From: a virus | Virus record (IMG/VR): IMGVR_UViG_3300007775_000003 | Coordinates: 1-50,805 of that record | Direction: 5' to 3' (one strand) | DNA length: 50,805 nucleotides | Part shown: in pieces, positions 9,180 to 50,317 of the stretch | How the letters are laid out: every line of letters begins with the position of its first letter | How positions within the stretch are numbered: position 1 is the stretch's first letter | The notes under the pieces: model-generated | Database searches by the model: none | What the model saw: only the letters and a program-made list of their open reading frames with translations | What the model was told of the DNA's origin: nothing | Program-made: the position numbers and the translations under genes

Positions 9180-10256
9180 ATGACGATCATTAATGTCTGT
9201 ACTCCTGGATCAATAGACGGCTGTGATAGTTACGGCCTGATCTGCATCCAACTGGCCCGCGGCCTTACTGCGCTGGGCTGCCACGTCAACCTGTTTGCGC
9301 TGGGCGACAATCGTCACCCTAACCAACCGGCGGACGTGGCGGCCATCACGGTGCAGCCCATCCGGGCGGCGCTGGGTGGGATCATGCTGGGCTATCCGGC
9401 CACCTATGCCCGGCATGGCGCGCTAACCCAAATTGGGCCGCGCGTGGCGCTGACCATGTTCGAGAGCAGTCGCCTGCCGGCGGGGTGGGCGGAGACGCTC
9501 AACACGATGGACGCGGTGATTGTGCCGGGCCGGTTTTGCCGCGATGTATTTTTGGATTGTGGAATTACCACTGCAATCCATATTGCGCCGCTGGGCGTCA
9601 ACGAGATCTACCAACCCGCGGCGCGCAACACGGATGGGCCGTGTACGTTCCTGGCCTTCCTGGATCGGGGACTTCGCAAAGGCGGCCTGGTGGCGCTCCA
9701 TGCGTTTGTGCGGGCGTTTGGGGACGATCCAGAATACCGGTTGATTCTCAAATGCCGGACACCGCGTGTTGAGATGCACATCACGAATCCGAATGTTGAG
9801 ATAGTGCAACGGGACATGAGCGAGACGGAGTTATACGAATTGTACCTATCCGCTCATTGCCTGGTATTCCCCACCAAGGGCGAAGGCTTCGGCTTGCCGC
9901 CGCGTGAGTTTGCCGCGACCGGTGGCATCGCACTCGCCACCGGCTGGGGCGGCACGGCTGACGGTATCGAACAGTGGGGCGTGCCAATACCCTACAAACT
10001 CGTGCCGGCAGATTGGCGCGGGGCCAAACGGTTGGAAGGCCAGCCGCTTGGCGAGTGGGCTGAGGTGGATGTTGCGGATGTGGCCGAGGCCATGCGCTAC
10101 GTGGCGCTGGAACGAGAGCAGTTATTACGCCGGGCGTACAGCCAAGCGCCGCGGGTGCGTGCCATGTATGACTGGCGCAAGTTCGCCGGGCAGGCGTTGA
10201 GTACTTACGAGGGGGTGGCCGATGGCGCTCACAGTCGCTACGCAATCGCAAGCTGA
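9180..10256 (+). CDS. GT4-type glycosyltransferase inside the head gene cluster
   Basis: 358 residues with the two-domain GT-B layout. The N-terminal half has the sugar-acceptor domain start MTIINVCTPG. The C-terminal half carries EGFGLPPREFAATGG (from about residue 235), the E-x7-E nucleotide-sugar motif of family GT4, preceded by SAHCLVFPTKG. These enzymes move a sugar from a nucleotide sugar to protein, glycan or lipid. It starts 3 nt after the capsid stop and its end overlaps the next connector gene by 35 nt, so it is expressed with virion proteins. Capsid or tail proteins are plausible acceptors. Confidence 0.8.
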   Translation: MTIINVCTPGSIDGCDSYGLICIQLARGLTALGCHVNLFALGDNRHPNQPADVAAITVQPIRAALGGIMLGYPATYARHGALTQIGPRVALTMFESSRLPAGWAETLNTMDAVIVPGRFCRDVFLDCGITTAIHIAPLGVNEIYQPAARNTDGPCTFLAFLDRGLRKGGLVALHAFVRAFGDDPEYRLILKCRTPRVEMHITNPNVEIVQRDMSETELYELYLSAHCLVFPTKGEGFGLPPREFAATGGIALATGWGGTADGIEQWGVPIPYKLVPADWRGAKRLEGQPLGEWAEVDVADVAEAMRYVALEREQLLRRAYSQAPRVRAMYDWRKFAGQALSTYEGVADGAHSRYAIAS

Positions 10257-21168: not shown

Positions 21169-21546
21169 TCACCACTCCCAGTCTCGCATAAACTGCGGTC
21201 TCTCCGGCTCGTGGTATTCGTCCGGTGCAACGATCTTGTACCAGGCGTTGAATGCCTCGACCGTCTGGCGCAGATTGGCCGGCGTGACTGGACGCTCCCA
21301 CACGTCCAGGATGAAGCGATCCATGTCCACTGAGTCGCCGCCGACGAAGACCGGCCAGGTGGACAGTGCCGAGTCTTCTTTCTCCGACAGCGCCGCGGTA
21401 AGCTCCTGCCACCGCTTGCCGCTCTCGCGGTCGGCGGCGGCGAGCAGGACGGTGCGACGCTTATCTGGCGTGAGCGTGTCCATGACATACTCGTATTCTG
21501 CGGCGCTGAGGCCACTGCGTAGTAATTTGGTTCCGTTGCCGGGCAT
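21169..21546 (-). CDS. Hypothetical protein, last gene of leftward block
   Basis: 125 residues, AGGAG 6 nt before its ATG at 21546. Charged, helical (SAAEYEYVMDTLTPDKRRTVLLAA; WQELTAALSEKEDSAL) with an aromatic C-terminus ending WEW. No signal or membrane segment. Family not recognised. It follows a small frameshifted frame and a possible helix-turn-helix gene in one tight run. Confidence 0.6.
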   Translation of the reverse strand: MPGNGTKLLRSGLSAAEYEYVMDTLTPDKRRTVLLAAADRESGKRWQELTAALSEKEDSALSTWPVFVGGDSVDMDRFILDVWERPVTPANLRQTVEAFNAWYKIVAPDEYHEPERPQFMRDWEW

Positions 21547-22514: not shown

Positions 22515-22529
22515 GAGTTTTGAAAACTC
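22515..22529. promoter_or_regulatory. Perfect dyad GAGTTTT-N-AAAACTC, candidate operator
   Basis: 15-nt perfect inverted repeat around one base, 13 nt upstream of the -35 box of the 22.5-kb promoter. An identical dyad lies 13 nt upstream of the -35 box at 28.39 kb. The repeat of both sequence and spacing argues for a protein-binding site (activator or repressor). Confidence 0.7.
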
Positions 22530-22564: not shown

Positions 22565-22598
22565 AAAAAAGCCCCGGCCAGCGCAAGCCAGCCGGGGC
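22565..22598 (-). terminator. Rho-independent terminator after 22645 gene
   Basis: GCCCCGGC (22571-22578) pairs with GCCGGGGC (22591-22598); read leftward the stem is followed by six T (22570-22565). It ends the unit containing the FtsK-like gene and insulates the promoter just downstream. Confidence 0.85.
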
Positions 22599-22644: not shown

Positions 22645-23085
22645 TTATTTGCCTCTCTTTTTTGCCCAAGCCGCGTGACCCTCTTTGCATGTCGGTTCGA
22701 TCCACGGTGTGGGCAGCTTGCCGCCGTACTTTGCCGCCCATGCTTGGTTGCGCGGGTCAATCACGCCGCCCACGATTGCAAGTTTCTGCGTCCGCTCCAT
22801 TAAGTACTCCGCCCAATTCGCTTGAGACGTGCGCACCGCCACCCGCGCCTCTTGCGCCGCCGGTTGGGGCGGTGATCCAACCGTGTGGACGCCCTCGCTG
22901 TAACGTAGAATTTCAACGCCGCGTGGTTCCAGCGCCGTGTAAATGGTGTCACGCGCCGGGGTGCAGTACGCTTTTTGCACTACGAACGTATGCATGCCTG
23001 CCGGTTTTGCCTTCGCTTTGGCGGGACTGCGTCTTGCACCTTGCCGCGCTTTGCTTCTCCACTCTGTACGCCAGTTGCTTGCCAT
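22645..23085 (-). CDS. Hypothetical basic protein
   Basis: 146 residues from ATG 23085, which overlaps the upstream stop (TAATG) with AAGGTGAG before it. A longer frame to 23589 only mirrors the neighbour. Residues 1-30 are strongly basic (WRSKARQGARRSPAKAKAKP), followed by HTFVVQKAYCTPARDTIY. The C-terminal third has W-rich and Lys-rich patterns (QAWAAKYGGKLPTPWIEPTC). The basic N-terminus suggests nucleic-acid or envelope contact. Unknown family, in the FtsK-like gene unit. Confidence 0.6.
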   Translation of the reverse strand: MASNWRTEWRSKARQGARRSPAKAKAKPAGMHTFVVQKAYCTPARDTIYTALEPRGVEILRYSEGVHTVGSPPQPAAQEARVAVRTSQANWAEYLMERTQKLAIVGGVIDPRNQAWAAKYGGKLPTPWIEPTCKEGHAAWAKKRGK

Positions 23086-23645
23086 TAGCTCACCTTTGGT
23101 AGTCTGTACATGGTTGCCTGTTCGCCTTCCAGGGGTAGCGCATATTGCGGCGTATCGTCCGGCTCCACTTCGGCCAGCCGGTTGCGCTGCTCGGCGTCGT
23201 TGGCACGGTAAGCCAGTTCCGCCAGGCGCTTTTCGTACATGGCCCCGATTTTGCCGTAGCTGCTCAAAATGTCCTGCTGCGTCTTGGCGTCGGCGGCGTT
23301 CATTTGGTTGACGCCGCGCACAACCTCCGTCACCGCTCGCGCCTGCTGTGCCCCGCTCATGGCGTGGGCGTGGAGCAGATCCGCGTTGCTCTGGGCGATG
23401 CCGTGGCCGAACCGTACCAACAGCGCCATCGTTGCATGAATGCCGCCGTACAGCACGGCCAGCACAACCAGCACGCCGACGGCCACACCATACCAGCGCG
23501 CCCACTCCTTGCCACCTAGCCAGACGGAAACACCAAAGCCGCCGAAGATGAACACGACGGCCAGAATCGAGAACGCGACAAACGCCCACAGGCGGGCGCT
23601 CTGGTCGGTCGTGCCACTGCGGGTATAGGTTGGTTCGTTGTACAT
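23085..23645 (-). CDS. Two-helix membrane protein with coiled-coil tail
   Basis: 186 residues. Two transmembrane segments (about 21-43 LWAFVAFSILAVVFIFGGFGV and 52-73 GVAVGVLVVLAVLYGGIHATM), then a cytoplasmic-looking helical region (residues 85-160) with many Gln, Asn and Ala residues. It lies directly downstream of the FtsK-like ATPase with 11 nt between. Such pairing suggests a membrane anchor or partner for the motor. Family not recognised. Confidence 0.65.
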   Translation of the reverse strand: MYNEPTYTRSGTTDQSARLWAFVAFSILAVVFIFGGFGVSVWLGGKEWARWYGVAVGVLVVLAVLYGGIHATMALLVRFGHGIAQSNADLLHAHAMSGAQQARAVTEVVRGVNQMNAADAKTQQDILSSYGKIGAMYEKRLAELAYRANDAEQRNRLAEVEPDDTPQYALPLEGEQATMYRLPKVS

Positions 23646-23656
23646 GGCATGGCTCC

Positions 23657-25105
23657 TTATTGCGGCTTCAATGCGCTACTACTACTGTACATAAACGGCG
23701 CTACACGGGCCACAGAAGGGCGCTGAGGCGCTTTGTCGCTAGAAGTAGTAGCGGTAGTAGCGGTTGGCGCTTTCTCTTTATCTAGCACCGCTAACGCCGC
23801 CAACAAGCGCCGCCGGTTAGCGCCGCCGGTGTAAGCGTTGTCGTCACCAGTGAGAAGTCGAATCATATCCGCCTGCGTAGCGTCCGCGGCGTAAGCCTCA
23901 CGGATGGCGGCGGCGTCGATTTCGTCTTGTGTTACCGCTACCGGCGCTACCGGCGCAGTAGCGGCTGGTAGCGGCTTGGTAGTAGCGATGGTAGCGACCT
24001 CTGAACGGTGGCCGTAGTTGCGCCAGATGGCCCGACACAAGCCCATCGGCGTATCAATTAGCGGCGTTTGGTAACGAAACATGGTGCGGTTCAGTCGGTA
24101 AATAAATGAACCATACCCCGGCAACATTTCGGCCCCGCTCGCCTTGACCTGCACCGCCGTGTTGGCGTCGTCCTTGCTGGTCACGCTGCCCACTAGGCGC
24201 ATGAGTAGGTTCGACTTGAGTTGGTCGCCTAGCACATCGGCGGTCGGCTTCTGTGTGCAGATTATCAAATTCATGTTGTTCTCACGACACCGGCGGGCGA
24301 TGTCGGCCAAAAAGAATAGAATCTTGTTTCGTGTGTTCTTGTCTGGATGCTCGGTCAAGCTGGCGGCTTCCTCAATTGCCAGGATGTGCCGTGTGTCCCG
24401 CGAGACAATGCCCCGCTCGCGTTGCTCCATTTCGGCGTAAAATGTCGTGATGGCGTGTACAGCGTCTTCCAGGTCACGCGCCACGGTGCGGACGTGGGGC
24501 AAATTGTCTAGGAACTGTACGCCGTCGCTGTGTTTTGGGTCAACGACCGTGATCGCCAAGTCCGACGGCGAGTTGTGTAGCATAAGCGAAAACAACACCG
24601 ACAGTAGTTGGTTGGTCTTGCCGCTGCCGGTGGAGCCTGCAATCAACCCATGCGGCTGGTCGGGCTTCGCCATATTCCACAAGACCGGCGCGGTGCCATC
24701 GCCGGTGTAGCGCAGGCCACAAAATGCCGTCATCGGTGTACCAGGCCATTGCACCGACGACCAGGACAGCACGTCGCGCTGTGGCCGGCTGATCTCCATC
24801 GTGTGTTCGTAGCGGTCAATGCGCACGGTGGGCATGATCTCCATGCCGCTTTCGTCGGTGCTGGTTATGCCATTCATGCGCCGAAACTGGCGCACATAGG
24901 ACAACGTGTCATCCTGTTGCGCCAACAGCTTGCCGCCGTCAATACCCATCGGCACGCTCAGGTCATAGACGACCGTGGTGGGCGTCAGGTAGTGCGACGG
25001 CAGGCGGCGCGAGGTGCAAGGCACGGACACAGACAGGCCACGCGCCTTGAATAGTTGATTGATGATTGTCGCTTCGCTAACGATTCGTGCCAGGTCGTCT
25101 TGCAT
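23657..25105 (-). CDS. FtsK/SpoIIIE-family DNA translocase-like ATPase
   Basis: 482 residues. ATG 25105 is chosen over a frame extension to 25153 because GAGGAGGTGACA stands before it. Walker A GLIAGSTGSGKTNQ (about residue 155), AITVVDPKHSDGVQFL after it, Walker B-like HILAIEEAAS (about 240), then the sensor block NLIICTQKPTADVLGDQLKSNL and LLMRLVGSV typical of FtsK/TraB motors. The C-terminal 130 residues are Ala/Thr-rich with a small winged-helix-like LTGDDNAYTGGANRRRLLAALAVL. No membrane segment, so it may rely on the neighbouring membrane proteins. Role could be DNA transfer, partition or packaging-like pumping. Confidence 0.8.
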   Translation of the reverse strand: MQDDLARIVSEATIINQLFKARGLSVSVPCTSRRLPSHYLTPTTVVYDLSVPMGIDGGKLLAQQDDTLSYVRQFRRMNGITSTDESGMEIMPTVRIDRYEHTMEISRPQRDVLSWSSVQWPGTPMTAFCGLRYTGDGTAPVLWNMAKPDQPHGLIAGSTGSGKTNQLLSVLFSLMLHNSPSDLAITVVDPKHSDGVQFLDNLPHVRTVARDLEDAVHAITTFYAEMEQRERGIVSRDTRHILAIEEAASLTEHPDKNTRNKILFFLADIARRCRENNMNLIICTQKPTADVLGDQLKSNLLMRLVGSVTSKDDANTAVQVKASGAEMLPGYGSFIYRLNRTMFRYQTPLIDTPMGLCRAIWRNYGHRSEVATIATTKPLPAATAPVAPVAVTQDEIDAAAIREAYAADATQADMIRLLTGDDNAYTGGANRRRLLAALAVLDKEKAPTATTATTSSDKAPQRPSVARVAPFMYSSSSALKPQ

Positions 25106-25107
25106 TG

Positions 25108-25194
25108 TCACCTCCTCATCACATACCACGCCAACAACGGGACGGTCAGCCATGCCAGCGCCACCAGGATTGTGCCGAACGTGTGGTCGGTCAT
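25108..25194 (-). CDS. 28-residue single-span membrane peptide
   Basis: ATG 25194 overlaps the HNH stop (ATGA); stop at 25108, 2 nt before the FtsK-like start region. The product is essentially one transmembrane helix (TFGTILVALAWLTVPLLAWYV) with a basic end MRR. The tight coupling on both sides supports expression. Could be a small partner of the FtsK-like motor. Confidence 0.5.
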   Translation of the reverse strand: MTDHTFGTILVALAWLTVPLLAWYVMRR

Positions 25195-25451
25195 AGCGTC
25201 AATCCACCGTGCGCTTTGCCGTGGCACGCTGCGCACACGGTCGTCAGGTCGAACAGTTCGCGCAACCACGAGCCGCCCCGGTGTGTGTACGAATGGTGGT
25301 GGACTTCTAACCGCTGGGACGTTCCGCACATCCGGCAACGGTTGCCGTCGATGTGGCGGCGCACCCAGCGCAGGATGCGCCAACGCGGTGTGCGGAGATA
25401 CGCACGGTAGGCGATCTGTTCGGGTGAGAGCGGCGAGACGAAGTTGGTCAT
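25191..25451 (-). CDS. HNH endonuclease-like protein
   Basis: 86 residues from ATG 25451 with GAGGCG upstream. CRMCG (about 46-50), LEVHHHSYTHRGG (about 55-67) and DLTTVCAACHGKAH (about 73-86) give the HNH core and two CxxC zinc pairs. Small HNH proteins nick or cut DNA, and some phage ones assist packaging. Here it is sandwiched between the membrane-HTH protein and the FtsK-like ATPase, which may hint at a nick-and-transfer role; this is speculative. Confidence 0.75.
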   Translation of the reverse strand: MTNFVSPLSPEQIAYRAYLRTPRWRILRWVRRHIDGNRCRMCGTSQRLEVHHHSYTHRGGSWLRELFDLTTVCAACHGKAHGGLTL

Positions 25452-26200
25452 GTGTTCGCCTCTGCTTTGCCGTGTCCGTTTAATTGCGCCCGCGCTTCTT
25501 TCAGTCGATTGTTGACGGTACGCTCCGATTTGCCGATTTGACCGGAGATTTGCGAAATCGTGTAGCCGTTTTGCTTCATATTCCACACCTGCAAAACCTC
25601 AGACGGCAGCGCAATCACGGGCGTGTCGTCGGCAACTTCTTGCACTACTGGTTGCGTGATTTTTGCGCTTTTGCGCCCTGTTACGCCATTGCGTTTTTGC
25701 GTGATTTTTGCGTCCTCATTGCGTTCGTGCCACCGTTTCAAGCCAAGCGCCACGAATGCAAACATACTGATTAGTGGCAATCCGGCAAGTACCCAGTGCC
25801 CGCCGGTCTTGATTTCTAGCTGGTAAACGACGGTCATCACAATCGCCAACATGCCTACACTAGCAACCACGGCCACCCCCAGCGGCCACGCATAGCGTTT
25901 GCGGTTACCTAGCAAGCCGTCCCACATATGCAGCGCAACTTCGATGATTGCAAACAGCGCAAGTTCCACCGCCATTGCGAACGCAAATGCTTGCAATTGC
26001 GTGTAACCGAGGCTGTGCTGGCTAATGTTGTAGACGCTCACAGCGTTGGGCAATGGCGCAAGCAACGCCAAAGCACGGGCGGCAATGTCTGCGCCCTTGT
26101 CGCTGGTTTCGGTAGCGATGTACCACAGCATGTGGATCAGCGCGCCGTAGTGACGCTTTAGAAATTTGACGTAAGAAGGATATTCGTTGTTGTCAATCAT
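25448..26200 (-). CDS. Four-span membrane protein with C-terminal helix-turn-helix
   Basis: 250 residues. Hydrophobic segments about 66-90 (LQAFAFAMAVELALFAIIEVAL), 104-126 (WPLGVAVVASVGMLAIVMTVV) and 135-155 (HWVLAGLPLISMFAFVALGL), plus a weaker one near 22-50. A basic linker leads to a helix-turn-helix LQVWNMKQNGYTISQISGQIGKSERTVNNRLKEARAQL (about 204-242). This layout resembles DUF2637/Spd-like membrane proteins that accompany FtsK/TraB motors in actinobacterial plasmids, but I cannot confirm homology. Could be a membrane-bound regulator or a DNA anchor. Confidence 0.65.
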   Translation of the reverse strand: MIDNNEYPSYVKFLKRHYGALIHMLWYIATETSDKGADIAARALALLAPLPNAVSVYNISQHSLGYTQLQAFAFAMAVELALFAIIEVALHMWDGLLGNRKRYAWPLGVAVVASVGMLAIVMTVVYQLEIKTGGHWVLAGLPLISMFAFVALGLKRWHERNEDAKITQKRNGVTGRKSAKITQPVVQEVADDTPVIALPSEVLQVWNMKQNGYTISQISGQIGKSERTVNNRLKEARAQLNGHGKAEANT

Positions 26201-26315
26201 GGCCTCACCTTGTCAGTTTGGCCGGAGGTGCTGCATAATGTTCGCAGCCGCCAGCCGGTCATGTCGGTTGTTGGTCAGCGCGTCGTTGGTGGTTTCGTCA
26301 CTGGCGACGCGCGCG

Positions 26316-26564
26316 CTACTCTACTACTTCCACATTCTCGGCGCGCCAAGCGCACCATTCCGCATGGATGGCAGGCGGCACGCTATAGCGCACCACACGA
26401 AGAACTCCCCAGCCATCACCGGGCCATTCTTCGCCGGTTTCCTCAATCAACCCAGCGGCCACCAATGTCGCCAGTGTCGCCGGGCGGTGGCCCTTGTCCT
26501 GGTTGACGGCCACCTGCTCAAACACTCGCAGTTGCGCCGGGGTCAGGTTGCAGAATCGTTTCAT
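26316..26564 (-). CDS. Small winged-helix-like protein
   Basis: 82 residues, start overlapping the upstream stop. FCNLTPAQLRVFEQVAVNQDKGHRPATLATLVAAGLIEETGEE reads like a helix-turn-helix with a short wing (GWGVLRVVRYSV). It may be a DNA-binding regulator. The 115 nt after it (26201-26315) holds an open stretch of about 36 codons lacking a start, which I do not call. Confidence 0.5.
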   Translation of the reverse strand: MKRFCNLTPAQLRVFEQVAVNQDKGHRPATLATLVAAGLIEETGEEWPGDGWGVLRVVRYSVPPAIHAEWCAWRAENVEVVE

Positions 26565-26779
26565 CCCTCCACCTCCTCATCCGCTGCGTCTTCCAGCGCT
26601 ATGCTATCAAAACCAACCGGCGCATAGCCTTCTGTATTCAACACTTTTTGCGCTTGGTCGCGCGCCGCCTCGGCAACTGCTCGCCTTACTAATTGCTTTA
26701 CTCCAAGCCGCTTGCCGTAGCGGCGTTTAAGTAGCCAAATGGTTCTCCGATCCAATAGGATTGTTGCGGCTTCGTTCAC
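26561..26779 (-). CDS. Small basic helical protein
   Basis: 72 residues from GTG 26779, which overlaps the previous stop (GTGA) and has AGGAGGT upstream; a longer frame lies in the neighbour. The pattern TILLDRRTIWLLKRRYGKRLGVKQLVRRAVAEAARDQ resembles a ribbon-helix-helix-like N-terminus with basic helices, then an acidic tail. Possible DNA-binding protein. Unknown family. Confidence 0.5.
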   Translation of the reverse strand: MNEAATILLDRRTIWLLKRRYGKRLGVKQLVRRAVAEAARDQAQKVLNTEGYAPVGFDSIALEDAADEEVEG

Positions 26780-27018
26780 CCGTCTACCTCCTGCGCTGCG
26801 TGCGCCAACAGGCACTCAAGCTCACTGGCCGTCATGCCACCACGTAGCAGCGCCACGAGCGCACCGTACACAATCGAGCGGCGTTCGTCGGGGTGTAGTT
26901 TGAGTAGCAAATCGGTCAGCGAATTTGCTTGCATGGCCGCTCGTACCCACATGGCACTACGTCCGATGGTCGGCACATCAATCGGGGCCGCTGGGCGGTC
27001 AAGCGTGATCGTAGTCAT
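26776..27018 (-). CDS. Hypothetical protein
   Basis: 80 residues. N-terminal strand-like MTTITLDRPAAPIDVP, then helices (SAMWVRAAMQANSLTDLLLKL and RRSIVYGALVALLRGGMTASELECLLAHA). Overlaps the upstream RHH gene by 20 nt. No recognised family. It belongs to the same unit as flanking small regulators. Confidence 0.5.
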   Translation of the reverse strand: MTTITLDRPAAPIDVPTIGRSAMWVRAAMQANSLTDLLLKLHPDERRSIVYGALVALLRGGMTASELECLLAHAAQEVDG

Positions 27019-27247
27019 TTGTCATCATCTCCATTAGGATGCCTAGCATTTCCTCGATCCGTTCCAGGCGTTCGGCTGTCTGCGCACGGGAGCCGGTACG
27101 CTCGTCGTCTCGTAGCCGGTTCCAGTCAGCCAAAATTTGCCGGATCAGCTCGGACTGATTCCATGCGTGCTCACCCCAAATGCAGGCCGCTCGCTCGATA
27201 ACCTGCAAAGCGTGGGCGTCCAGTCGAATTGTTGTGCGCTTTTCCAT
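26999..27247 (-). CDS. Ribbon-helix-helix protein, CopG-like
   Basis: 82 residues. KRTTIRLDAHALQVIERAACIWGEHAWNQSELIRQILADW matches a ribbon-helix-helix fold: a basic beta strand, a helix, a turn with N, and a second helix. C-terminal coiled coil TAERLERIEEMLGILMEMM may add oligomerisation. First gene after the promoter at 27291-27320, so it may autoregulate the unit down to the FtsK-like gene, as copy-number or transfer regulators do in plasmids. Confidence 0.7.
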   Translation of the reverse strand: MEKRTTIRLDAHALQVIERAACIWGEHAWNQSELIRQILADWNRLRDDERTGSRAQTAERLERIEEMLGILMEMMTNDYDHA

Positions 27248-27290
27248 GAGGCTCCATTAGTTCAGTTGGCATACTTTGTCATACAGGGCC

Positions 27291-27320
27291 AGTATAGCAC
27301 GCCCACACCCCCCCTGTCAA
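27291..27320 (-). promoter_or_regulatory. Sigma70 promoter, leftward
   Basis: TTGACA (27320-27315), 18-nt spacer with seven G, TATACT (27296-27291) on the minus strand. It lies about 45 nt before the RHH gene start and just after the terminator at 27348-27379. It lacks the two dyads seen in the 22.5 and 28.4 kb cassettes. Confidence 0.8.
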
Positions 27321-27347
27321 TTCCCAAAATTTCCGCACGCATGGCAA

Positions 27348-27379
27348 CAAAAAAAGCCCGACGTGGTGAGCGTCGGGCT
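27348..27379 (-). terminator. Rho-independent terminator
   Basis: AGCCCGACG (27355-27363) pairs with CGTCGGGCT (27371-27379); leftward it is followed by seven T. Ends the unit 27391-28273. Confidence 0.85.
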
Positions 27380-27390
27380 GTGTGTGGGGT

Positions 27391-27645
27391 CTACTCCCAC
27401 GCCGGTTTTCCGGCTTTCTTGTGCGCCGCTGCGCCGGTCGGCGTAGGCGTCTCCAGGTATGCAACCCAACTGGCGCGGTCGATATACCAACGCGAGCCGC
27501 GCTTCTCGGCCTGGATCTTGCCGTCGCGACACAGCCGGCCAATCCAGGCCAGTTCCATGCCCCGCCCCAGCAGGCGAGACAGGGCGCGGGCCTCACCTGC
27601 GTCGAGTGTGGGCTGGGCGAGAAGTTCGGTTTTGGTTTTGCTCAT
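27391..27645 (-). CDS. Excisionase-like winged-helix DNA-binding protein
   Basis: 84 residues from ATG 27645 with CAGGAG upstream. LLGRGMELAWIGRLCRDGKIQAEKRGSRWYIDRASWVAYLE matches the MerR/excisionase-type HTH_17 pattern: a short helix, GKI-A-K-G-RWYID, and a closing helix. Members are excisionases or plasmid regulators. No integrase was seen, so a regulatory role is more likely than excision. Confidence 0.7.
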   Translation of the reverse strand: MSKTKTELLAQPTLDAGEARALSRLLGRGMELAWIGRLCRDGKIQAEKRGSRWYIDRASWVAYLETPTPTGAAAHKKAGKPAWE

Positions 27646-27664
27646 AGTGGCTCCTGTGTTAGTG

Positions 27665-27686
27665 GGGGCGGCTTTCACACCGCCCC
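27665..27686. other. GC-rich hairpin before ribosome site (leader hairpin A)
   Basis: GGGGCGG and CCGCCCC around an 8-nt loop, between the stop of the 27694 gene and the start at 27645. Reading leftward it is followed by CCACTAACACAGGAG, close to CCACTAGCACGGAGG after hairpin B. Confidence 0.65.
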
Positions 27687-27693
27687 TGGTTGG

Positions 27694-28032
27694 TTACTTT
27701 ATCAGCCCGACTTGCTTCGCCATCTTGCGGCTGTACTCGCTTAGATCTACACGCATACAAATTAGCCGCACTTCTTCCCGCCATCCCCTCTCAAATTCCG
27801 GGTAACACTCTTCCGGTAAATCCTGATTTTCACGAGCGGCCCGACGCCCCGCTTCAAAAATCTTTTCGTCAATTTCCTTGCGGGCTTCTTTTAGGCTAGA
27901 GCAACTTCCATTTCGCGTCGCCTGAATATACCAACGGCCAAAATAACCAGGGCTAATGCTATCATTACGACCGATTGAATATCCACAGTAGTAATACCCA
28001 CCTGCACACTTAGTCATTTTCGCTTTCATCAT
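27694..28032 (-). CDS. Hypothetical Cys/Tyr-rich protein
   Basis: 112 residues, GGAGGATAGG before tandem ATG (28032). N-terminal half is Tyr/Gly/Cys-rich (CAGGYYYCGYSIGRND, FGRWYIQATRNGSC) like a small beta or zinc fold, followed by a charged helical part (SLKEARKEIDEKIFEAGRRA). Unknown family. In the 28.39-kb promoter unit. Confidence 0.6.
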   Translation of the reverse strand: MMKAKMTKCAGGYYYCGYSIGRNDSISPGYFGRWYIQATRNGSCSSLKEARKEIDEKIFEAGRRAARENQDLPEECYPEFERGWREEVRLICMRVDLSEYSRKMAKQVGLIK

Positions 28033-28050
28033 CCTATCCTCCGTGCTAGT

Positions 28051-28070
28051 GGGGCTAGTCGCCTAGCCCC
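28051..28070. other. GC-rich hairpin before ribosome site (leader hairpin B)
   Basis: GGGGCTAG and CTAGCCCC, perfect 8-bp stem, TCGC loop. Lies between the stop at 28079 and the start at 28032; leftward followed by CACTAGCACGGAGG. Confidence 0.7.
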
Positions 28071-28078
28071 TGGGTTTG

Positions 28079-28273
28079 TCACGCAAACATAAACCGTAAC
28101 TCGTCTTCGTCAATCCCGTGTTCCGCCGCCCAGGTCGCATTCTCTGCGACAATTTGGGCGTTGCGGCGCTCAATTTCTTCCTGCTTGCGCTGCTCGGCTG
28201 CGAACCATGCTGCCTGAAACTTCGGTTGGAATTTGCCGCCGTTGGTCTTGCGTGTGGTATAATTAGTGTTCAT
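28079..28273 (-). CDS. Small charged helical protein
   Basis: 64 residues. TRKTNGGKFQPKFQAAWFAAEQRKQEEIERRNAQI is basic then helical, followed by acidic GIDEDELRFMFA. First gene of the unit from the promoter at 28366-28394. Ribosome site AAGGAC upstream of ATG 28273. No recognised family. Confidence 0.55.
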   Translation of the reverse strand: MNTNYTTRKTNGGKFQPKFQAAWFAAEQRKQEEIERRNAQIVAENATWAAEHGIDEDELRFMFA

Positions 28274-28365: not shown

Positions 28366-28394
28366 AGTATAGCAGAAATCGATACACTTGTCAA
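28366..28394 (-). promoter_or_regulatory. Sigma70 promoter, leftward (cassette copy 2)
   Basis: TTGACA (28394-28389), 17-nt spacer, TATACT (28371-28366) on the minus strand. Drives 28273 and following genes. Upstream are the same two dyads and a terminator as at 22.5 kb. Confidence 0.85.
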
Positions 28395-28407: not shown

Positions 28408-28422
28408 GAGTTTTCAAAACTC
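28408..28422. promoter_or_regulatory. Perfect dyad GAGTTTT-N-AAAACTC, candidate operator
   Basis: Same site as 22515-22529; flanking C/G extend it to a 17-nt palindrome here. 13 nt upstream of the -35 box, exactly as in copy 1. A half-preserved relative lies at 38888-38899. Confidence 0.7.
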
Positions 28423-28497: not shown

Positions 28498-28583
28498 CGT
28501 GTTCGCCCGTGGCAGCACGGGCACACTCATCATCTTTGCAGCCTAATTTGATTCGATGCCGACGGCCACGGTTGCCCGTGTGT

Positions 28584-38883: not shown

Positions 38884-39086
38884 GTACGAGTTTTGAAAAA
38901 GCAACGCCCCGGCGCAACCGTCAAGCCCGCCGGGCCATCAAAGGGAGGTGATGCAGTCTCAACTAAAACGACAAGCGACCTCGGCAAAGGTCGCTCATTG
39001 GCACAGCAAATTATTTTTCAACTGTAGTCTACCACAATCAAACATGATTGTGTGTATGAATTTCGTATCAAATAGGAGCTTTCACA

Positions 39087-43275: not shown

Positions 43276-45687
43276 ATGGCAGTTGACCCGCGGTTTTACG
43301 ATCTCGTTGCTCACCTGTGGCGCAATGGCGTCGCCGGGTATTATTGGACCCCGGATACTGACGAAGGCAAACTTTCCTTTTGGTTTCCGGCTGGCCGGCC
43401 CAAAGAAGTATCGTCGCTGTGGAAATCTATCAACGTCTATTTCGGCGTGCATCCGTCTAGCGTCGAGCGCGGCCACAGAGAGCGGGCGCTAATTGAGCAT
43501 ATCGCCGTGGTCAACTGCCTGTTTGCCGAGTTTGATTTGGCACCGGGGCAGACGCCCGAACACTTGCTACAGTCAATCATGCAGATTGATACACCGCCCA
43601 GCGTGGTTGTGTTTTCCGGCGGCGGCTATCATTGCTACTGGCTACTCGCACAGACCTACCACATTGACGACGACATTGCCCGCAAACGGATTATTGAGAT
43701 TCAGTACGCTTGGGCGGACTTCGTAGGCAGCGACGGCGCGGCTAAAGATTTGGCGCGGGTACTGCGCGTGCCAGGCACTTACAACCGCAAGCCTGAGTAC
43801 GGCCCCAAATTCCCACAGGTTGAAATTGTACGTTTCGATCTGGATGCCACCTATGAGCTTGACGAACTAGCCAGCCAGGTTGAAACAATCATCGAGCTAA
43901 ATCGAACTCGTAAAATTGCCGCCGCTAACGTTGATGTGGTGCCGGTCGATTTTGACGATCAAACCATACTAGAACGCATGTGGCAGAAAGACGCCGCGTC
44001 AGTCTCTCTATGGGGCGGCGATTTGTCTGCCTACAATGATGACCACAGCAGCGCAGATCTGGCGCTATGTAGCAAACTTGCGTTCTGGTTCGGGCGTGAT
44101 CCGGTACGCATTGATCGGGTGTTTCGCCGCTCGGCATTGTATCGGGACAAATGGCTACGCGAGGACTACCGCAACAATACCATTGATAAAGCAATAGCTG
44201 GCACTGTAAACACGTACACGGTTGGCAGCGCCAACCTCGGAGGCGCTGCCGACTTGGCGGCACAGGCAAACGGCCACAAAGGGGCGCAAACTACCGCGGG
44301 GGGTACAGTGCAGGGCAATACAGCAACACCTACCCCAACAAGCTATTTGTTAAATCAAGGCGCTCACGACGAGGGCAACGCTCAATGTGTTCACGAACGA
44401 TATCAAAGTCGTTTTTTGTATAGCGATTCGTTTGGCTGGATGCAATTTACCGGCACGCACTGGATGATCAGCCGCGCTGAATCAGTAGTTGAGCGGGCGA
44501 TTACCGAAACATTGATCGCCCGTATGCAGGAAGCCATTAGAGTTGATGTAAATAGATACGCCGGTTTGATTCGACAAACCGTGCCGAACAGCGCAAAGGT
44601 CAAAGGCGCAAAAGCTCAATTGAGCAGCCTGGTCAGCGTCAGTGAAGATCAATTCGATATTGAACCAGATTTTCTTAACTGCCCAAACGGTTTGGTCAAT
44701 CTGAAAACCGGCCAAATATCACCACACTCCCCCGCACAGCGGTTTATGCACTGTACAGCCGTGCCATACAACCCGAAAGCCGACCAAAGTTTTTGGGTTG
44801 ACTGGCTTACCGATGCCGTCGGCAGTGCGGATGTTGCATTTTGGCTGAAACTGGCTATTGGCTATTCGCTCACGGGTCACACACGGGAGGAAGTGCTTTT
44901 TTATCTCTTTGGGCCACCTCGCAGCGGCAAGGGGACATTCACAGAGACAATGTTGGCGTTACTGGGTTCTCCATTAGCAAAAGAAATTAACTTCGCTACA
45001 TTCACAGCGCAGCGCAGTGGCGACAGTCAGAATTTTGACCTTGCACCGCTCAAGCCTTGCCGGTTCCTGGCTGCCAGCGAGTCAAATACCTATGAGCGAT
45101 TCAACGAAGCGAAAGTAAAGGCGCTTACGGGTGGCAACGAAATCTATTGCGCCTATAAACACAAGACACACTTTAACTATCGACCTCAATTCAAAATATG
45201 GTTGTCATCGAATCAGCCGGTCAACGCAGACCCTGACGATGATGCCGCATGGGGGCGTATTCGGGTCGTTGAATTTCCACACTCTCACCAGGGGCAAGAG
45301 GACAAAGAATTAAAAGCCCGAATGCGTTCGCGAGAAGTGCTTGAAGGTGTTTTGGCCTGGGCTATCGAAGGCGCAAAATTTTGGAATCTCCTGGGCAAAA
45401 ACGGACTGCCCGAACTAGATGCGGGAGCGAAAACCAAACACGCCCAGCGATCTGAACTAGACAACGTGCAAGCATGGATTGATGAAAAGTGCGAGCTTGG
45501 CAGCCATCACTTCGCCGCCAACGCGTCGCTGTATCCTAATTATTCCGAATGGTGCAAGACCAACGGCGTGACCGCCAAACAACAGAAGGCGTTTTCGCAG
45601 AGCCTGAAACGAAAAGGCTTGCATGACAAGGTAGTCAAACTGCATGGAAAGACCGTGAGAGGCTATGAGGGCATCAAAGTTAACTAA
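43276..45687 (+). CDS. RepB-type primase / SF3 (D5-like) helicase
   Basis: 803 residues. N-terminal RepB-like primase: FAEFDLAPGQ, VVFSGGGYHCYWLL and RVLRVPGTYNRK (to about 180). C-terminal D5_N then SF3 helicase: FGPPRSGKGTF (Walker A, about 545-555), the KPCRFLAASESN region, and WLSSNQPVNADPDDDAAWGRIRV (sensor, about 640-665). Type used by P4-like phages and plasmids to open and prime their origin. An iteron cluster lies immediately downstream. Key replication protein here. Confidence 0.85.
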   Translation: MAVDPRFYDLVAHLWRNGVAGYYWTPDTDEGKLSFWFPAGRPKEVSSLWKSINVYFGVHPSSVERGHRERALIEHIAVVNCLFAEFDLAPGQTPEHLLQSIMQIDTPPSVVVFSGGGYHCYWLLAQTYHIDDDIARKRIIEIQYAWADFVGSDGAAKDLARVLRVPGTYNRKPEYGPKFPQVEIVRFDLDATYELDELASQVETIIELNRTRKIAAANVDVVPVDFDDQTILERMWQKDAASVSLWGGDLSAYNDDHSSADLALCSKLAFWFGRDPVRIDRVFRRSALYRDKWLREDYRNNTIDKAIAGTVNTYTVGSANLGGAADLAAQANGHKGAQTTAGGTVQGNTATPTPTSYLLNQGAHDEGNAQCVHERYQSRFLYSDSFGWMQFTGTHWMISRAESVVERAITETLIARMQEAIRVDVNRYAGLIRQTVPNSAKVKGAKAQLSSLVSVSEDQFDIEPDFLNCPNGLVNLKTGQISPHSPAQRFMHCTAVPYNPKADQSFWVDWLTDAVGSADVAFWLKLAIGYSLTGHTREEVLFYLFGPPRSGKGTFTETMLALLGSPLAKEINFATFTAQRSGDSQNFDLAPLKPCRFLAASESNTYERFNEAKVKALTGGNEIYCAYKHKTHFNYRPQFKIWLSSNQPVNADPDDDAAWGRIRVVEFPHSHQGQEDKELKARMRSREVLEGVLAWAIEGAKFWNLLGKNGLPELDAGAKTKHAQRSELDNVQAWIDEKCELGSHHFAANASLYPNYSEWCKTNGVTAKQQKAFSQSLKRKGLHDKVVKLHGKTVRGYEGIKVN

Positions 45688-45711
45688 TTTCAGAAATAAG
45701 TTGAAAACAGT

Positions 45712-45893
45712 GTAACTTTGCGTAACCTGTAACCAGAGGCCAAAATACACCTGTAGAACCGGTTACACGTAGTGTAACCGTAACTCGAAATAGTTACAGG
45801 TTACGCAAAGTTACGGCCATTTTACCTTATTTTCAATATTTAATCTCATATAGGAATATATTGAATTACACGTAACTATCTGTAACCTGTAAC
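45712..45893. other. Candidate replication origin: iterons with AT-rich core
   Basis: Three 22-nt units of form GTAAC-N5-GTAACCTGTAAC: 45712-45733, its exact inverted copy 45793-45814, and a third at 45872-45893. Between the first two is a further dyad GGTTACAC-gta-GTGTAACC. Between the second and third is an AT-rich stretch (about 45815-45871). Lies just after the primase-helicase. The rest of 45688-46072 holds no confident gene except a small frame before 46073. Confidence 0.8.
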
Positions 45894-45969
45894 TATAGGT
45901 GTAATTAGCATGTCTATACGAAAAAGCAACGAAAATAAGTCCTTACAATTTTCTTAACGGGGGGGATAT

Positions 45970-47078: not shown

Positions 47079-47225
47079 GTGCTAGCGCTCATGGCGGTAA
47101 TTTTTTTGTTTGCACTCACCATCTCGTCTGGTGTGATTGTGAGACAATTTGATTTGCTGGGTACGCAAATTGAACGTCAGTTTGATCGTATCGACCGGCG
47201 CTTGGATGGAGTGCGCACACCCTAA
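47079..47225 (+). CDS. Holin-like small membrane protein in frame with the previous stop
   Basis: 48 residues from GTG 47079 (or ATG 47091). One strong hydrophobic helix (LALMAVIFLFALTISSGVIV) then an amphipathic helix (LLGTQIERQFDRIDRRLDGV). No ribosome site before either start. The frame is the direct continuation of the previous gene through TAG 47049. Holin-like topology; stop overlaps next start (TAATG). Confidence 0.5.
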   Translation: MLALMAVIFLFALTISSGVIVRQFDLLGTQIERQFDRIDRRLDGVRTP

Positions 47226-48676
47226 TGGCCATAATCGAAGCAACGCCAATCAACCTGCAAGCCAAGCTCGACGCCGCCACCCCCGGCGATGTGGTTGCTC
47301 TACGCGGTGGTGAATACCCCGGCGAGTATGCTATCCGTCGCCCCGGCCTGACGTTACAGTCTGTGCCTGGCGCGCCCAGCGGGCACCCGCCCGTCTTCGT
47401 CGGTCCGGCCAAACCCGTCAGCGGTGACAAACCGGCTTGGCTGCTCATCTACCCCAGCGCCGCCAATACAACCCTGAGCGGCTTGACATTCGCCCGCGAA
47501 GGCGACATTACGAAAGCCAAAGCCTATAACGATTTCGGCGTCATCATCGAAGCGCCGGGCGTAACGGTGCAGGATTGCCGCATCAGTGGTATGACGAAGG
47601 GTATCCATGTCAAAGGCCCAAAAAGCACCGGCGTCACTATCCGCAATAACGTCATTGGTCCTACCTACCAGAGCAATATCGTCGTTGGCACATCTTACGG
47701 TGTGGTGCGTGCCTTGCTAATCGCCTACAACCTGCTGGAGCGCTCGTATATCGAAGATGGTATCCAGTTCATGCAGAATTTCGACCTGTCTGACGACGCA
47801 AAAGCGGCGGACGTGTCGAACCTGGGCACCATCATCTACCAGAACACTATCCGCGATCATGGTGAAAACGCCATCGACCTGAAGGGCGCGGGGTTGGTGG
47901 TCATCGACGGCAACGTTATCACGCGCATCGCGGGGAGCAACAACGGGCCGTTGGACGGCTGGAATCACAATGCCAACCAGAGCATTGGCAAGGGCGCGCA
48001 TGCATCTAGCGGCTATGTGCTAATCCGCAATAACGACATTCAGGACAATTGCAGCGGCATCCGCTCGCAGCCTGGATGGAAGATTGTCCACAACCTGATT
48101 GCCAATAACAACTATTCGTCAGACGGAACGATTTGGGCCGGCTATGGCATCGGTAACCAAAACGGTGGCGGGCGGCTGGCCATCGTCAACAATCTGGTTT
48201 ACGGCCACGGCGGTAGCGACCTGATCAATATGCCGGCCAACGCCGATGTACGCGGCAACCGGGTCGATGCCGGGCCGGGTGTTCCGCTCACTACCACGCG
48301 GCAAGGCGGCGGCGGGCGCGATTTACCCGTCATTGACGCCAGTTACTTCACGGACTGGCTTGGCCGTAAGGACCTGCCGGCGGAGGTAATTTTCGTCGGC
48401 GACGAGCGTTACGAGGTGACCGGCGTCAACTACGCGACTAACACGGTGCAGCTAGATCGCACCGCGGCTTGGACGGAAGGTGCGCCGGTGTGCTGGGGCA
48501 GTCCGCTGCCGGTGGCTGGCATCCAACCACATTGGCAAGCGCCGCCCGTGGTGGACCCGCCGGTCCCGGAACTTGAGATGGTGCGCTTGCTGCTTGAGTC
48601 GCAAATGACGCCGGCCGACGCCGCACAGTTGCGCGCTCTGCTGGCCGGGAAAGCGTATACGGTGAGTTTGACATAA
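47225..48676 (+). CDS. Right-handed beta-helix spike / polysaccharide lyase-like
   Basis: 483 residues. Repeated strand-turn patterns typical of parallel beta-helix proteins (GVTVQDCRISGMTKGIHVKG, TGVTIRNNVIG, YVLIRNNDIQDNCSGIRSQ, WKIVHNLIANNN, LAIVNNLVYGHGG). N-terminal VVALRGGEYPGEYAIRRPGLTLQSV starts the helix, and a C-terminal beta/helix tail follows (from about 370). Probably a depolymerase or surface spike. Located just before terminase, apart from the fibre module. Confidence 0.75.
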   Translation: MAIIEATPINLQAKLDAATPGDVVALRGGEYPGEYAIRRPGLTLQSVPGAPSGHPPVFVGPAKPVSGDKPAWLLIYPSAANTTLSGLTFAREGDITKAKAYNDFGVIIEAPGVTVQDCRISGMTKGIHVKGPKSTGVTIRNNVIGPTYQSNIVVGTSYGVVRALLIAYNLLERSYIEDGIQFMQNFDLSDDAKAADVSNLGTIIYQNTIRDHGENAIDLKGAGLVVIDGNVITRIAGSNNGPLDGWNHNANQSIGKGAHASSGYVLIRNNDIQDNCSGIRSQPGWKIVHNLIANNNYSSDGTIWAGYGIGNQNGGGRLAIVNNLVYGHGGSDLINMPANADVRGNRVDAGPGVPLTTTRQGGGGRDLPVIDASYFTDWLGRKDLPAEVIFVGDERYEVTGVNYATNTVQLDRTAAWTEGAPVCWGSPLPVAGIQPHWQAPPVVDPPVPELEMVRLLLESQMTPADAAQLRALLAGKAYTVSLT

Positions 48677-49077
48677 TGGCAGGTAGACCCAGCAAGCTGA
48701 CACCAGAGTTACAGGCGGAGATTGTCAAGCTACTCAGCGAAGGAAACTTTGTTGAGACGGTTTGCGATTACGTTGGCTTGAGCAAAAACACGTTTTACGA
48801 TTGGGTACGGCGCGGAGAAAGAGGATGGCAATCCGACATCGAGCCGGTTAATTTTGTGGAATTTTCGGACGCCATAAAAAAAGCAATGGCCGAAGTCGAA
48901 AAAAGTACGTTGATCGAACTGCGCGCCGGCCCACTAAACTGGCAGGCCAAAGCATGGTGGCTAGAGCGTCGCCATCCCGACAAATGGGGCAATCGGCAGA
49001 AAGTTGACCTTACGCATAAAGTTGTGGCGGTGAATTGGGGCGATGGCAAAACAGACGACAACAACGATACAAATTAA
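48676..49077 (+). CDS. terS: Terminase small subunit
   Basis: 133 residues. MAGRPSKLTPELQAEIVKLLSEG.FVETVCDYVGLSKNTFYDWVRRGERG is the helix-turn-helix of terminase small subunits; AWWLERRHPDKWG (about 94-106) is a frequent TerS motif. Binds the packaging site and the large subunit. Overlaps TerL by 35 nt. Start overlaps the spike stop. Confidence 0.85.
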   Translation: MAGRPSKLTPELQAEIVKLLSEGNFVETVCDYVGLSKNTFYDWVRRGERGWQSDIEPVNFVEFSDAIKKAMAEVEKSTLIELRAGPLNWQAKAWWLERRHPDKWGNRQKVDLTHKVVAVNWGDGKTDDNNDTN

Positions 49078-50317
49078 CGCCCGCCCCCATCCGGGACAAG
49101 CGGAAGTGCATAAACACCCGGCGCGTTTTAAAGTTTTGGCCGCGGGAAGACGTTGGGGAAAAACTCGACTGGGCGTCAACGAATGCTTAGACGTGGCTGC
49201 GCGGGGTGGCCGTGCCTGGTGGGTTGCTCCAACCTACAAAATGACTGAGGTGGGCTGGCGTCCGCTGCGTCAACTCAGTATGCAGATTGGAGCGCAAGTC
49301 TCGAAGGTTGACCGCCAGGTCATTCTACCGGGCGGCGGCGAAGTAACAGTGCGCAGCGCAGACAATCCCGACACGCTCCGCGGCGAAGGGTTGGACTTCG
49401 TGGTGATTGACGAGTGCGCCTTTGCGGTAGAGGAAGTTTGGACGGAAGCGTTACGTCCGGCACTCAGCGACCGGCAAGGCAAAGCGATGTTTTTCAGCAC
49501 GCCGGCCGGCCGTAATTGGTTTTGGCGGCTGTGGCAGCGTGGGCTTGGCGACGATCCAGAATGGCAATCGTGGCAACTGCCCACTAGCGGCAATCCGTAC
49601 ATTCCCGCTAGTGAGATTGAAGCCGCCAGGCAATCATTACCGGAACTGACATTTGAGCAAGAATATCTCGCACAATTCCTAGAAGGCGAAGGAATTGTTT
49701 TCAGGAATATCGCCAACTGCACCAAAGCGCCGGCCACTACCCCAGAAGCGCACGCTGGCCACCGCATTGTCGCCGGCTTGGACTGGGCCAAACAAAATGA
49801 TTTTACCTGCACCAGTATCGGCTGTGTAGATTGCAAAATAGAAATTGCGCGCGACCGGTTCAACAAAATCGACTACACGTTTCAGCGCGACCGGCTAAAG
49901 GCGCTCTACGAACTGTGGGGGGTTGATGAAATACTGGCCGAATCCAACAGTATTGGCGAGCCGAACCGCGAGATGCTTCAGCGGGACGGATTGCCGGTGA
50001 TCGCATTTGAGACGACCGCCAGCAGCAAGCCGCCGCTCATTGAGAATTTGGCGCTGAGCTTCGAGCGTGCCGAGTGGCAATTCCAAGCCGATCCGATATG
50101 GACGGCGGAGCTTGAAGCCTATGAGCGCAAGGTGAGCGCCATTACCGGCCGCAGTCAGTACAGCGCGCCGGAAGGCTTGCATGATGACACGGTGATCGCC
50201 CGTGCATTGGCCCGCTGGCAAGCCAACCAGGGCATTACCGCTATGCGCCAGGCGAGCGTGTATCAGGTGCGACCCGGGGCCGGCACGCGCACCGCCGTGC
50301 GGAGGATAGCCGCATGA
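49043..50317 (+). CDS. terL: Terminase large subunit
   Basis: 424 residues. Walker A AAGRRWGKTR (about 32-41), Walker B FVVIDECA (about 118-125), C motif near FFSTPAG (about 150), nuclease acids at GLDWAKQND (about 246-254) and HDDTVIA (about 380). ATP-driven motor and headful or site-specific nuclease of DNA packaging. Stop overlaps portal start (ATGA). Confidence 0.95.
   Translation: MAKQTTTTIQINARPHPGQAEVHKHPARFKVLAAGRRWGKTRLGVNECLDVAARGGRAWWVAPTYKMTEVGWRPLRQLSMQIGAQVSKVDRQVILPGGGEVTVRSADNPDTLRGEGLDFVVIDECAFAVEEVWTEALRPALSDRQGKAMFFSTPAGRNWFWRLWQRGLGDDPEWQSWQLPTSGNPYIPASEIEAARQSLPELTFEQEYLAQFLEGEGIVFRNIANCTKAPATTPEAHAGHRIVAGLDWAKQNDFTCTSIGCVDCKIEIARDRFNKIDYTFQRDRLKALYELWGVDEILAESNSIGEPNREMLQRDGLPVIAFETTASSKPPLIENLALSFERAEWQFQADPIWTAELEAYERKVSAITGRSQYSAPEGLHDDTVIARALARWQANQGITAMRQASVYQVRPGAGTRTAVRRIAA

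Follow-up and report, generated by a model that had tools for sequence, protein, structure and literature searches.

A predicted operon joining an FtsK-type motor to membrane proteins in a tailed phage

The motor operon and its products

We analysed a stretch of 50,805 bases (hereafter the window) that makes up the complete virus record IMGVR_UViG_3300007775_000003 and carries a 123-base end repeat. Positions 27320 to 22571, on the minus strand, form a single predicted transcription unit in which the gene for an RHH-type regulator is followed by three small genes, a gene for a four-span membrane protein with a C-terminal helix-turn-helix (HTH), an HNH gene, the gene for a 28-aa peptide, an FtsK-type ATPase gene, a gene for a two-span protein and one for a basic protein. 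The unit opens with a sigma-70-type promoter (TTGACA-18-TATACT, 27291..27320) that has 11 of 12 matches and a TG before the second hexamer, and closes with an intrinsic terminator (22571..22598) whose 12-pair stem contains 10 G-C pairs and precedes a TTTTTT tail. An equivalent promoter lies in the sister phage described below (L002 9122-9151). Of the sigma-70-type promoters in this region, the best three are those at 28394, 27320 and 22501, all of them minus-strand; strong terminators are found at 28498, 27379 and 22598. A first-pass annotation had drawn the module from 23085 to 28273. Its anatomy held, but one edge did not: given the promoter at 27320 and the terminators at 27379 and 22598, the module runs from 27320 to 22571, and 27391-28273 falls outside it as a separate unit behind the terminator at 27379-27355.

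A perfect palindrome, GAGTTTTNAAAACTC, occurs at 22515-22529 and at 28408-28422, immediately 5' of promoters of the form TTGACA-17-TATACT, with a weaker copy at 38888-38902. Two related copies are found in the sister phage (L007:3940-4120 and L007:5150-5345). This palindrome is possibly a shared operator for leftward promoters; it was not found at the promoter of the motor operon.

The first gene of the operon (26999..27247, minus strand, as are all genes of the unit) encodes an 82-aa RHH-type protein. Taken alone, its Pfam match is weak (RHH_1, E 0.16); conservation with the product of the sister's first gene (32 of 77 residues identical, Z about 10) nevertheless fits the RHH regulator proposed earlier. 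Overlapping it is the gene for an 80-aa protein (26776..27018) with a homologue at L002:9456-9659 (local Z 6.1, a score reached by 0 of 1000 shuffles). The two small genes that follow, one with a GTG start that overlaps the preceding gene (26561..26779) and one encoding 82 aa (26316..26564), were called from sequence, and no homologue of either was found.

The 250-aa protein encoded at 25448..26200 has four peaks in its hydropathy profile and, around residues 204-243, an HTH like that of sigma-70 region 4, in line with the four spans and C-terminal HTH of the first-pass annotation. An AlphaFold2 model of this protein was unreliable (pLDDT 56), and its Foldseek result was disregarded. The HNH gene (likely open reading frame 25191..25451, 86 aa) matches several PHROG HNH families (best 2.2e-9) and reaches 21.2 bits against PF01844, just under the cut-off of 21.4. 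The 28-residue span noticed earlier is a real open reading frame (25108..25194) encoding a one-span membrane peptide immediately before the motor gene. Predicted ATGA frame overlaps link the four-span/HTH gene to the HNH gene, and the HNH gene to that of the peptide. Beyond the motor gene lies the gene for a two-span membrane protein of 186 aa with a long tail (23085..23645); both of its hydropathy peaks (residues 21-39 and 58-76) are strong, and neither Pfam nor PHROG gave it a confident family. The last gene (22645..23085) encodes a small basic protein of 146 aa with weak local similarity to L002:12567-12929, at a score reached by 6 of 1000 shuffles.

The motor gene itself (23657..25105) starts with the ATG at 25105, preceded by a strong ribosome-binding site, GAGGAGG. 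Its 482-aa product had been taken for an FtsK/SpoIIIE-like ATPase without membrane segments, and our searches agree: it scores 65.1 bits against PF01580 (FtsK_SpoIIIE; E 8.5e-18, curated cut-off 24 bits), belongs to PHROG family phrog_1358 (8.6e-43) and has no transmembrane span by hydropathy. It departs from the architecture of cellular FtsK in lacking N-terminal spans, and Pfam finds no C-terminal gamma winged helix. An AlphaFold2 model built on an alignment of 46 phage proteins (pLDDT 76.5) matched the FtsK alpha/beta motor 6t8b in Foldseek at 3e-23 over about 400 columns; next came the pCW3 plasmid's coupling protein, TcpA (6o1w, 1.4e-18). Residues 393-444 were modelled as helices at low confidence. 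Judged by this model, then, the protein has a true FtsK alpha/beta motor fold of the non-packaging kind and is not a terminase. The other phage FtsKs found are about 25-34% identical to it, and in an FtsK tree the motors of the window and of the sister sit on very long branches with no supported placement.

A motor of this kind could also be the ATPase of a membrane-located system that keeps out other phages or plasmids. PADLOC reports similarity of the motor to mad8 (48 bits; 27 for the sister's motor) and to SspH, and the membrane proteins, the HTH and the accessory-gene position would suit exclusion or anti-phage defence. These matches lie at the level of the FtsK/HerA superfamily, however, and the motor is the only member of the operon to match a defence ATPase family; we regard such a function as improbable.

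Genome type and signs of a possible episomal state

The window carries the genes of a tailed phage, among them terminase (49043-50317), portal, capsid, tail fibre, ribonucleotide reductase and RecT, together with a primase/helicase that bears a D5 domain and a cI-like repressor gene. Relatives of its tail and capsid point to hosts that are unrelated to one another. A glycosyltransferase gene (9180-10256) lies immediately after the capsid gene. Near the terminase gene, 47225-48676 encodes a protein that is 70% identical in the sister (48617-50056), where a second, diverged copy is present at 53933-54475; Pfam and PHROG gave no match for it. A 125-aa protein (21169-21546; L002:15981-16358) is 84% identical between the window and the sister, much more than is usual across the genome; no family was found for it.

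Contigs more than 99.9% identical to the window occur in other samples (L101/G003, 33.3 kb, and L100, 7.1 kb). The longer of these ends at window positions 21217 and 38592, and the accessory region is thus missing from it. A near-identical contig from another sample crosses the junction of the window, and the genome is therefore circular or circularly permuted, which in turn makes an episomal state plausible. The absence of an integrase, claimed in the first-pass annotation, stands: no protein of the window matches PF00589 (tyrosine) or PF00239 (serine), and none was found in the sister or in a third comparison phage. Nor did any Xer/dif-type site for integrase-free integration score above shuffles. 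Set against the description of a phage-plasmid, the window thus shows phage genes and no integrase, and a ParA-type partition protein was not found in it. The iteron origin claimed earlier survives in part. Just behind the primase/helicase gene, 45680-45910 is rich in GTAAC/GTTAC, with 12 of the 75 sites of the whole genome falling within 231 bp, and on this sequence pattern it is a candidate replication origin; the sites do not form a tandem iteron array.

A lytic genome with terminal redundancy would show such an end repeat as well. The motor might also be one for lytic growth, sorting or resolving concatemers, aiding packaging or pulling in the incoming DNA. FtsK genes occur in many phage contigs, and the PHROG family of the motor is shared with the FtsK of phage AP-20-A, for which a role in concatemer handling and packaging has been proposed (PMC13299392). 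Against this, the motor gene belongs to a leftward operon that also encodes membrane partners; it lies well away from terminase and portal, and the operon has a near-consensus promoter of its own. We consider a lytic role unlikely, and less likely than one in maintenance.

Conservation in a sister phage and among phage FtsK loci

The most informative comparison was with a sister phage, IMGVR_UViG_3300037755_000523, whose 59.7-kb record also has an end repeat. Its first gene (RHH) and second small gene are homologous to those of the window. The four-span/HTH protein is 63% identical between the two phages, and the changes in its 238 codons fall at first, second and third positions in 76, 52 and 125 cases, third positions changing most. 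In the sister, the gene for this protein precedes one for a 26-aa one-span peptide (L002:10714-10794), which starts at the four-span/HTH stop codon; the gene for an FtsK-type ATPase comes next. The one-span peptides of the two phages thus stand at the same place, with a weak sequence similarity whose score was reached by 6 of 500 and by 13-38 of 1000 shuffles.

The motors themselves are hardly related, at about 24% identity. That of the sister scores 24.6 bits against PF01580 (cut-off 24), retrieves nothing but TcpA from the PDB by sequence, and carries two N-terminal spans of its own, whereas the window motor has none. In both loci, therefore, the membrane-HTH protein and the one-span peptide have an FtsK-type neighbour, even though one motor has been swapped for another. 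The sister lacks the HNH gene, and nothing in it was recognised as corresponding to the two-span protein of the window. That this protein substitutes for the two spans of the sister motor is only suggestive; the idea that it is a detached copy of that motor's N-terminus was rejected, the two sharing no sequence similarity.

Phages are mosaic, and the genes of the operon could be unrelated accessory genes that are neighbours by chance, as the missing HNH gene and the unrecognised two-span homologue in the sister might imply. Against this, three genes keep their order although the motor has been exchanged, and overlapping frames occur in both phages; we find a chance assembly very improbable. 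The same pattern answers the objection foreseen in the first-pass annotation, that an ordinary packaging or host FtsK stands among unrelated neighbours: the membrane-HTH neighbour is conserved, though the nearest solved fold is that of an FtsK motor.

The membrane-HTH protein was seen in these two genomes only, by searches that reach close relatives and in some cases consisted of a few short peptide patterns; GTDB contigs (searched with two such patterns), plasmids and phage records yielded no relatives. We also surveyed the neighbours of phage FtsK genes at 35 distinct loci, counting only motors of 350 aa or more. Membrane proteins were not clearly enriched near the motor (7 of 136 near genes against 9 of 337 far ones). 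An open reading frame with one or two spans that ends at the motor start was found at 6 of 53 phage FtsK loci and at 3 of 137 control genes (p 0.015), although three of the six form one related group; the related Bacillus-type group is included in the count. A Priestia plasmid and Bacillus phage 268TH007 have this arrangement as well.

Possible functions and known systems

The retention of a membrane partner across a change of motor, and the ATGA overlaps with it, speak for a DNA motor coupled to the membrane, and the arrangement lends good support to motor-driven handling of DNA there. Our preferred reading, to which we give somewhat less than an even chance, is that the operon encodes a membrane-coupled dsDNA motor that works, within the host cell, on the genome of the phage itself. 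The four-span protein would sit in the cytoplasmic membrane, its cytoplasmic HTH tail holding phage DNA there; the one-span peptide, joined in the window by the two-span protein, would dock the otherwise soluble ATPase at the same place; and the ATPase, presumably as a hexamer, would pump dsDNA. Autoregulation of the operon by the RHH protein is probable. The motor fold, gene order, predicted coupled frames, spans, HTH and kept order of the trio with the motor exchanged were computed; complex formation, the DNA substrate, timing and purpose we infer. The likeliest use would be maintenance, in the sense of moving or segregating an unintegrated phage genome. Three points lead us to rank it highest: the lack of any integrase match, the presence of a cI-like repressor gene, and a near-consensus promoter that serves the operon at a distance from the packaging genes.

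Transfer or partition of DNA by the motor, as the first-pass annotation had imagined, is possible. That annotation likened the set to the TraB/Spd modules of actinobacterial plasmids, and what it saw, an FtsK motor encoded alongside membrane proteins and DNA-binding regulators where no integrase was detected, holds true; the TraB/Spd identity does not. The motor reaches 25 bits against the NCBIfam TraB model (cut-off 800), below its scores for host FtsK (63) and EssC (60), and Pfam finds in it no C-terminal winged helix-turn-helix of the TraB type; the TraB of Streptomyces phage YDN12, used as a positive control, shows one. The four-span protein has no Pfam match to DUF2637, and its hhalign alignment to the SpdB of pIJ101 has a probability of 0.4%. 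A search for clt-like direct repeats gave a few clusters of 7-8-mers and no 9-mer cluster, the best (25660-25712) lying inside the membrane-HTH coding sequence. True TraB homologues do occur in Streptomyces phages, at about 43-46% identity to pIJ101 TraB; in YDN12, TP1604, BabyGotBac and others (L105) they lie near the genome end and are mostly annotated as FtsK-like only.

The motor might nonetheless push phage dsDNA into a neighbouring cell in the manner of TraB, with the membrane proteins as Spd-like partners. A single FtsK motor beside a membrane DNA-binding protein recalls pSVH1, where TraB has an interaction partner in SpdB2, a membrane protein able to bind DNA; spd genes in general vary widely, often without any sequence relationship (PMC4170104). 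DNA donation by an FtsK/HerA motor also exists outside actinobacteria, in the membrane-associated TdtA of Thermus (PMC5365140), and the sister motor is nearest to TcpA. Set against the failed TraB, DUF2637, winged-helix and clt comparisons, and against the lack of relaxase and T4SS domains by Pfam in the proteins scanned (a set that leaves aside small late genes), these parallels leave cell-to-cell spread distinctly unlikely.

The preferred reading of a membrane-coupled motor acting within the host has a bolder extension, which we think doubtful: an episomal tailed phage that spreads or segregates its dsDNA by a membrane-docked FtsK pump of its own, with the HTH membrane protein as receptor and an exchangeable motor, would amount to a transfer or partition system not of the TraB kind. 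Many phage contigs carry FtsK-type motors to which no function has been assigned. The conserved membrane-HTH partner and the one-span peptide, which persist across a change of motor, offer a concrete candidate complex. Through it, phages that do not integrate might hold their DNA, segregate it or spread it.

Among known systems, the TraB/Spd sets of Streptomyces plasmids, together with the TraB homologues of phages YDN12 and TP1604, share with the window an FtsK motor and, in concept, a membrane DNA-binding partner; in YDN12 no Spd is annotated near the TraB-type gene. TcpA of pCW3 resembles the window motor in fold, and the sister motor in its two N-terminal spans as well as by sequence. It differs from the window in that the motor here is without spans and no relaxase or T4SS domain accompanies it among the proteins scanned, though a T4SS might be supplied by the host or by a helper element. 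The PHROG 1358 FtsK/SpoIIIE-like protein of AP-20-A (p011) is alike in motor family and phage setting, and the part of its description that is available reports no membrane-HTH partner (PMC13299392). Bacillus phages and Priestia plasmids have pairs of FtsK and Replic_Relax without an HTH membrane protein, and Replic_Relax in turn was not found in the window; the likeness lies in a soluble FtsK, whose gene in these pairs comes directly after a small two-span gene and overlaps it.
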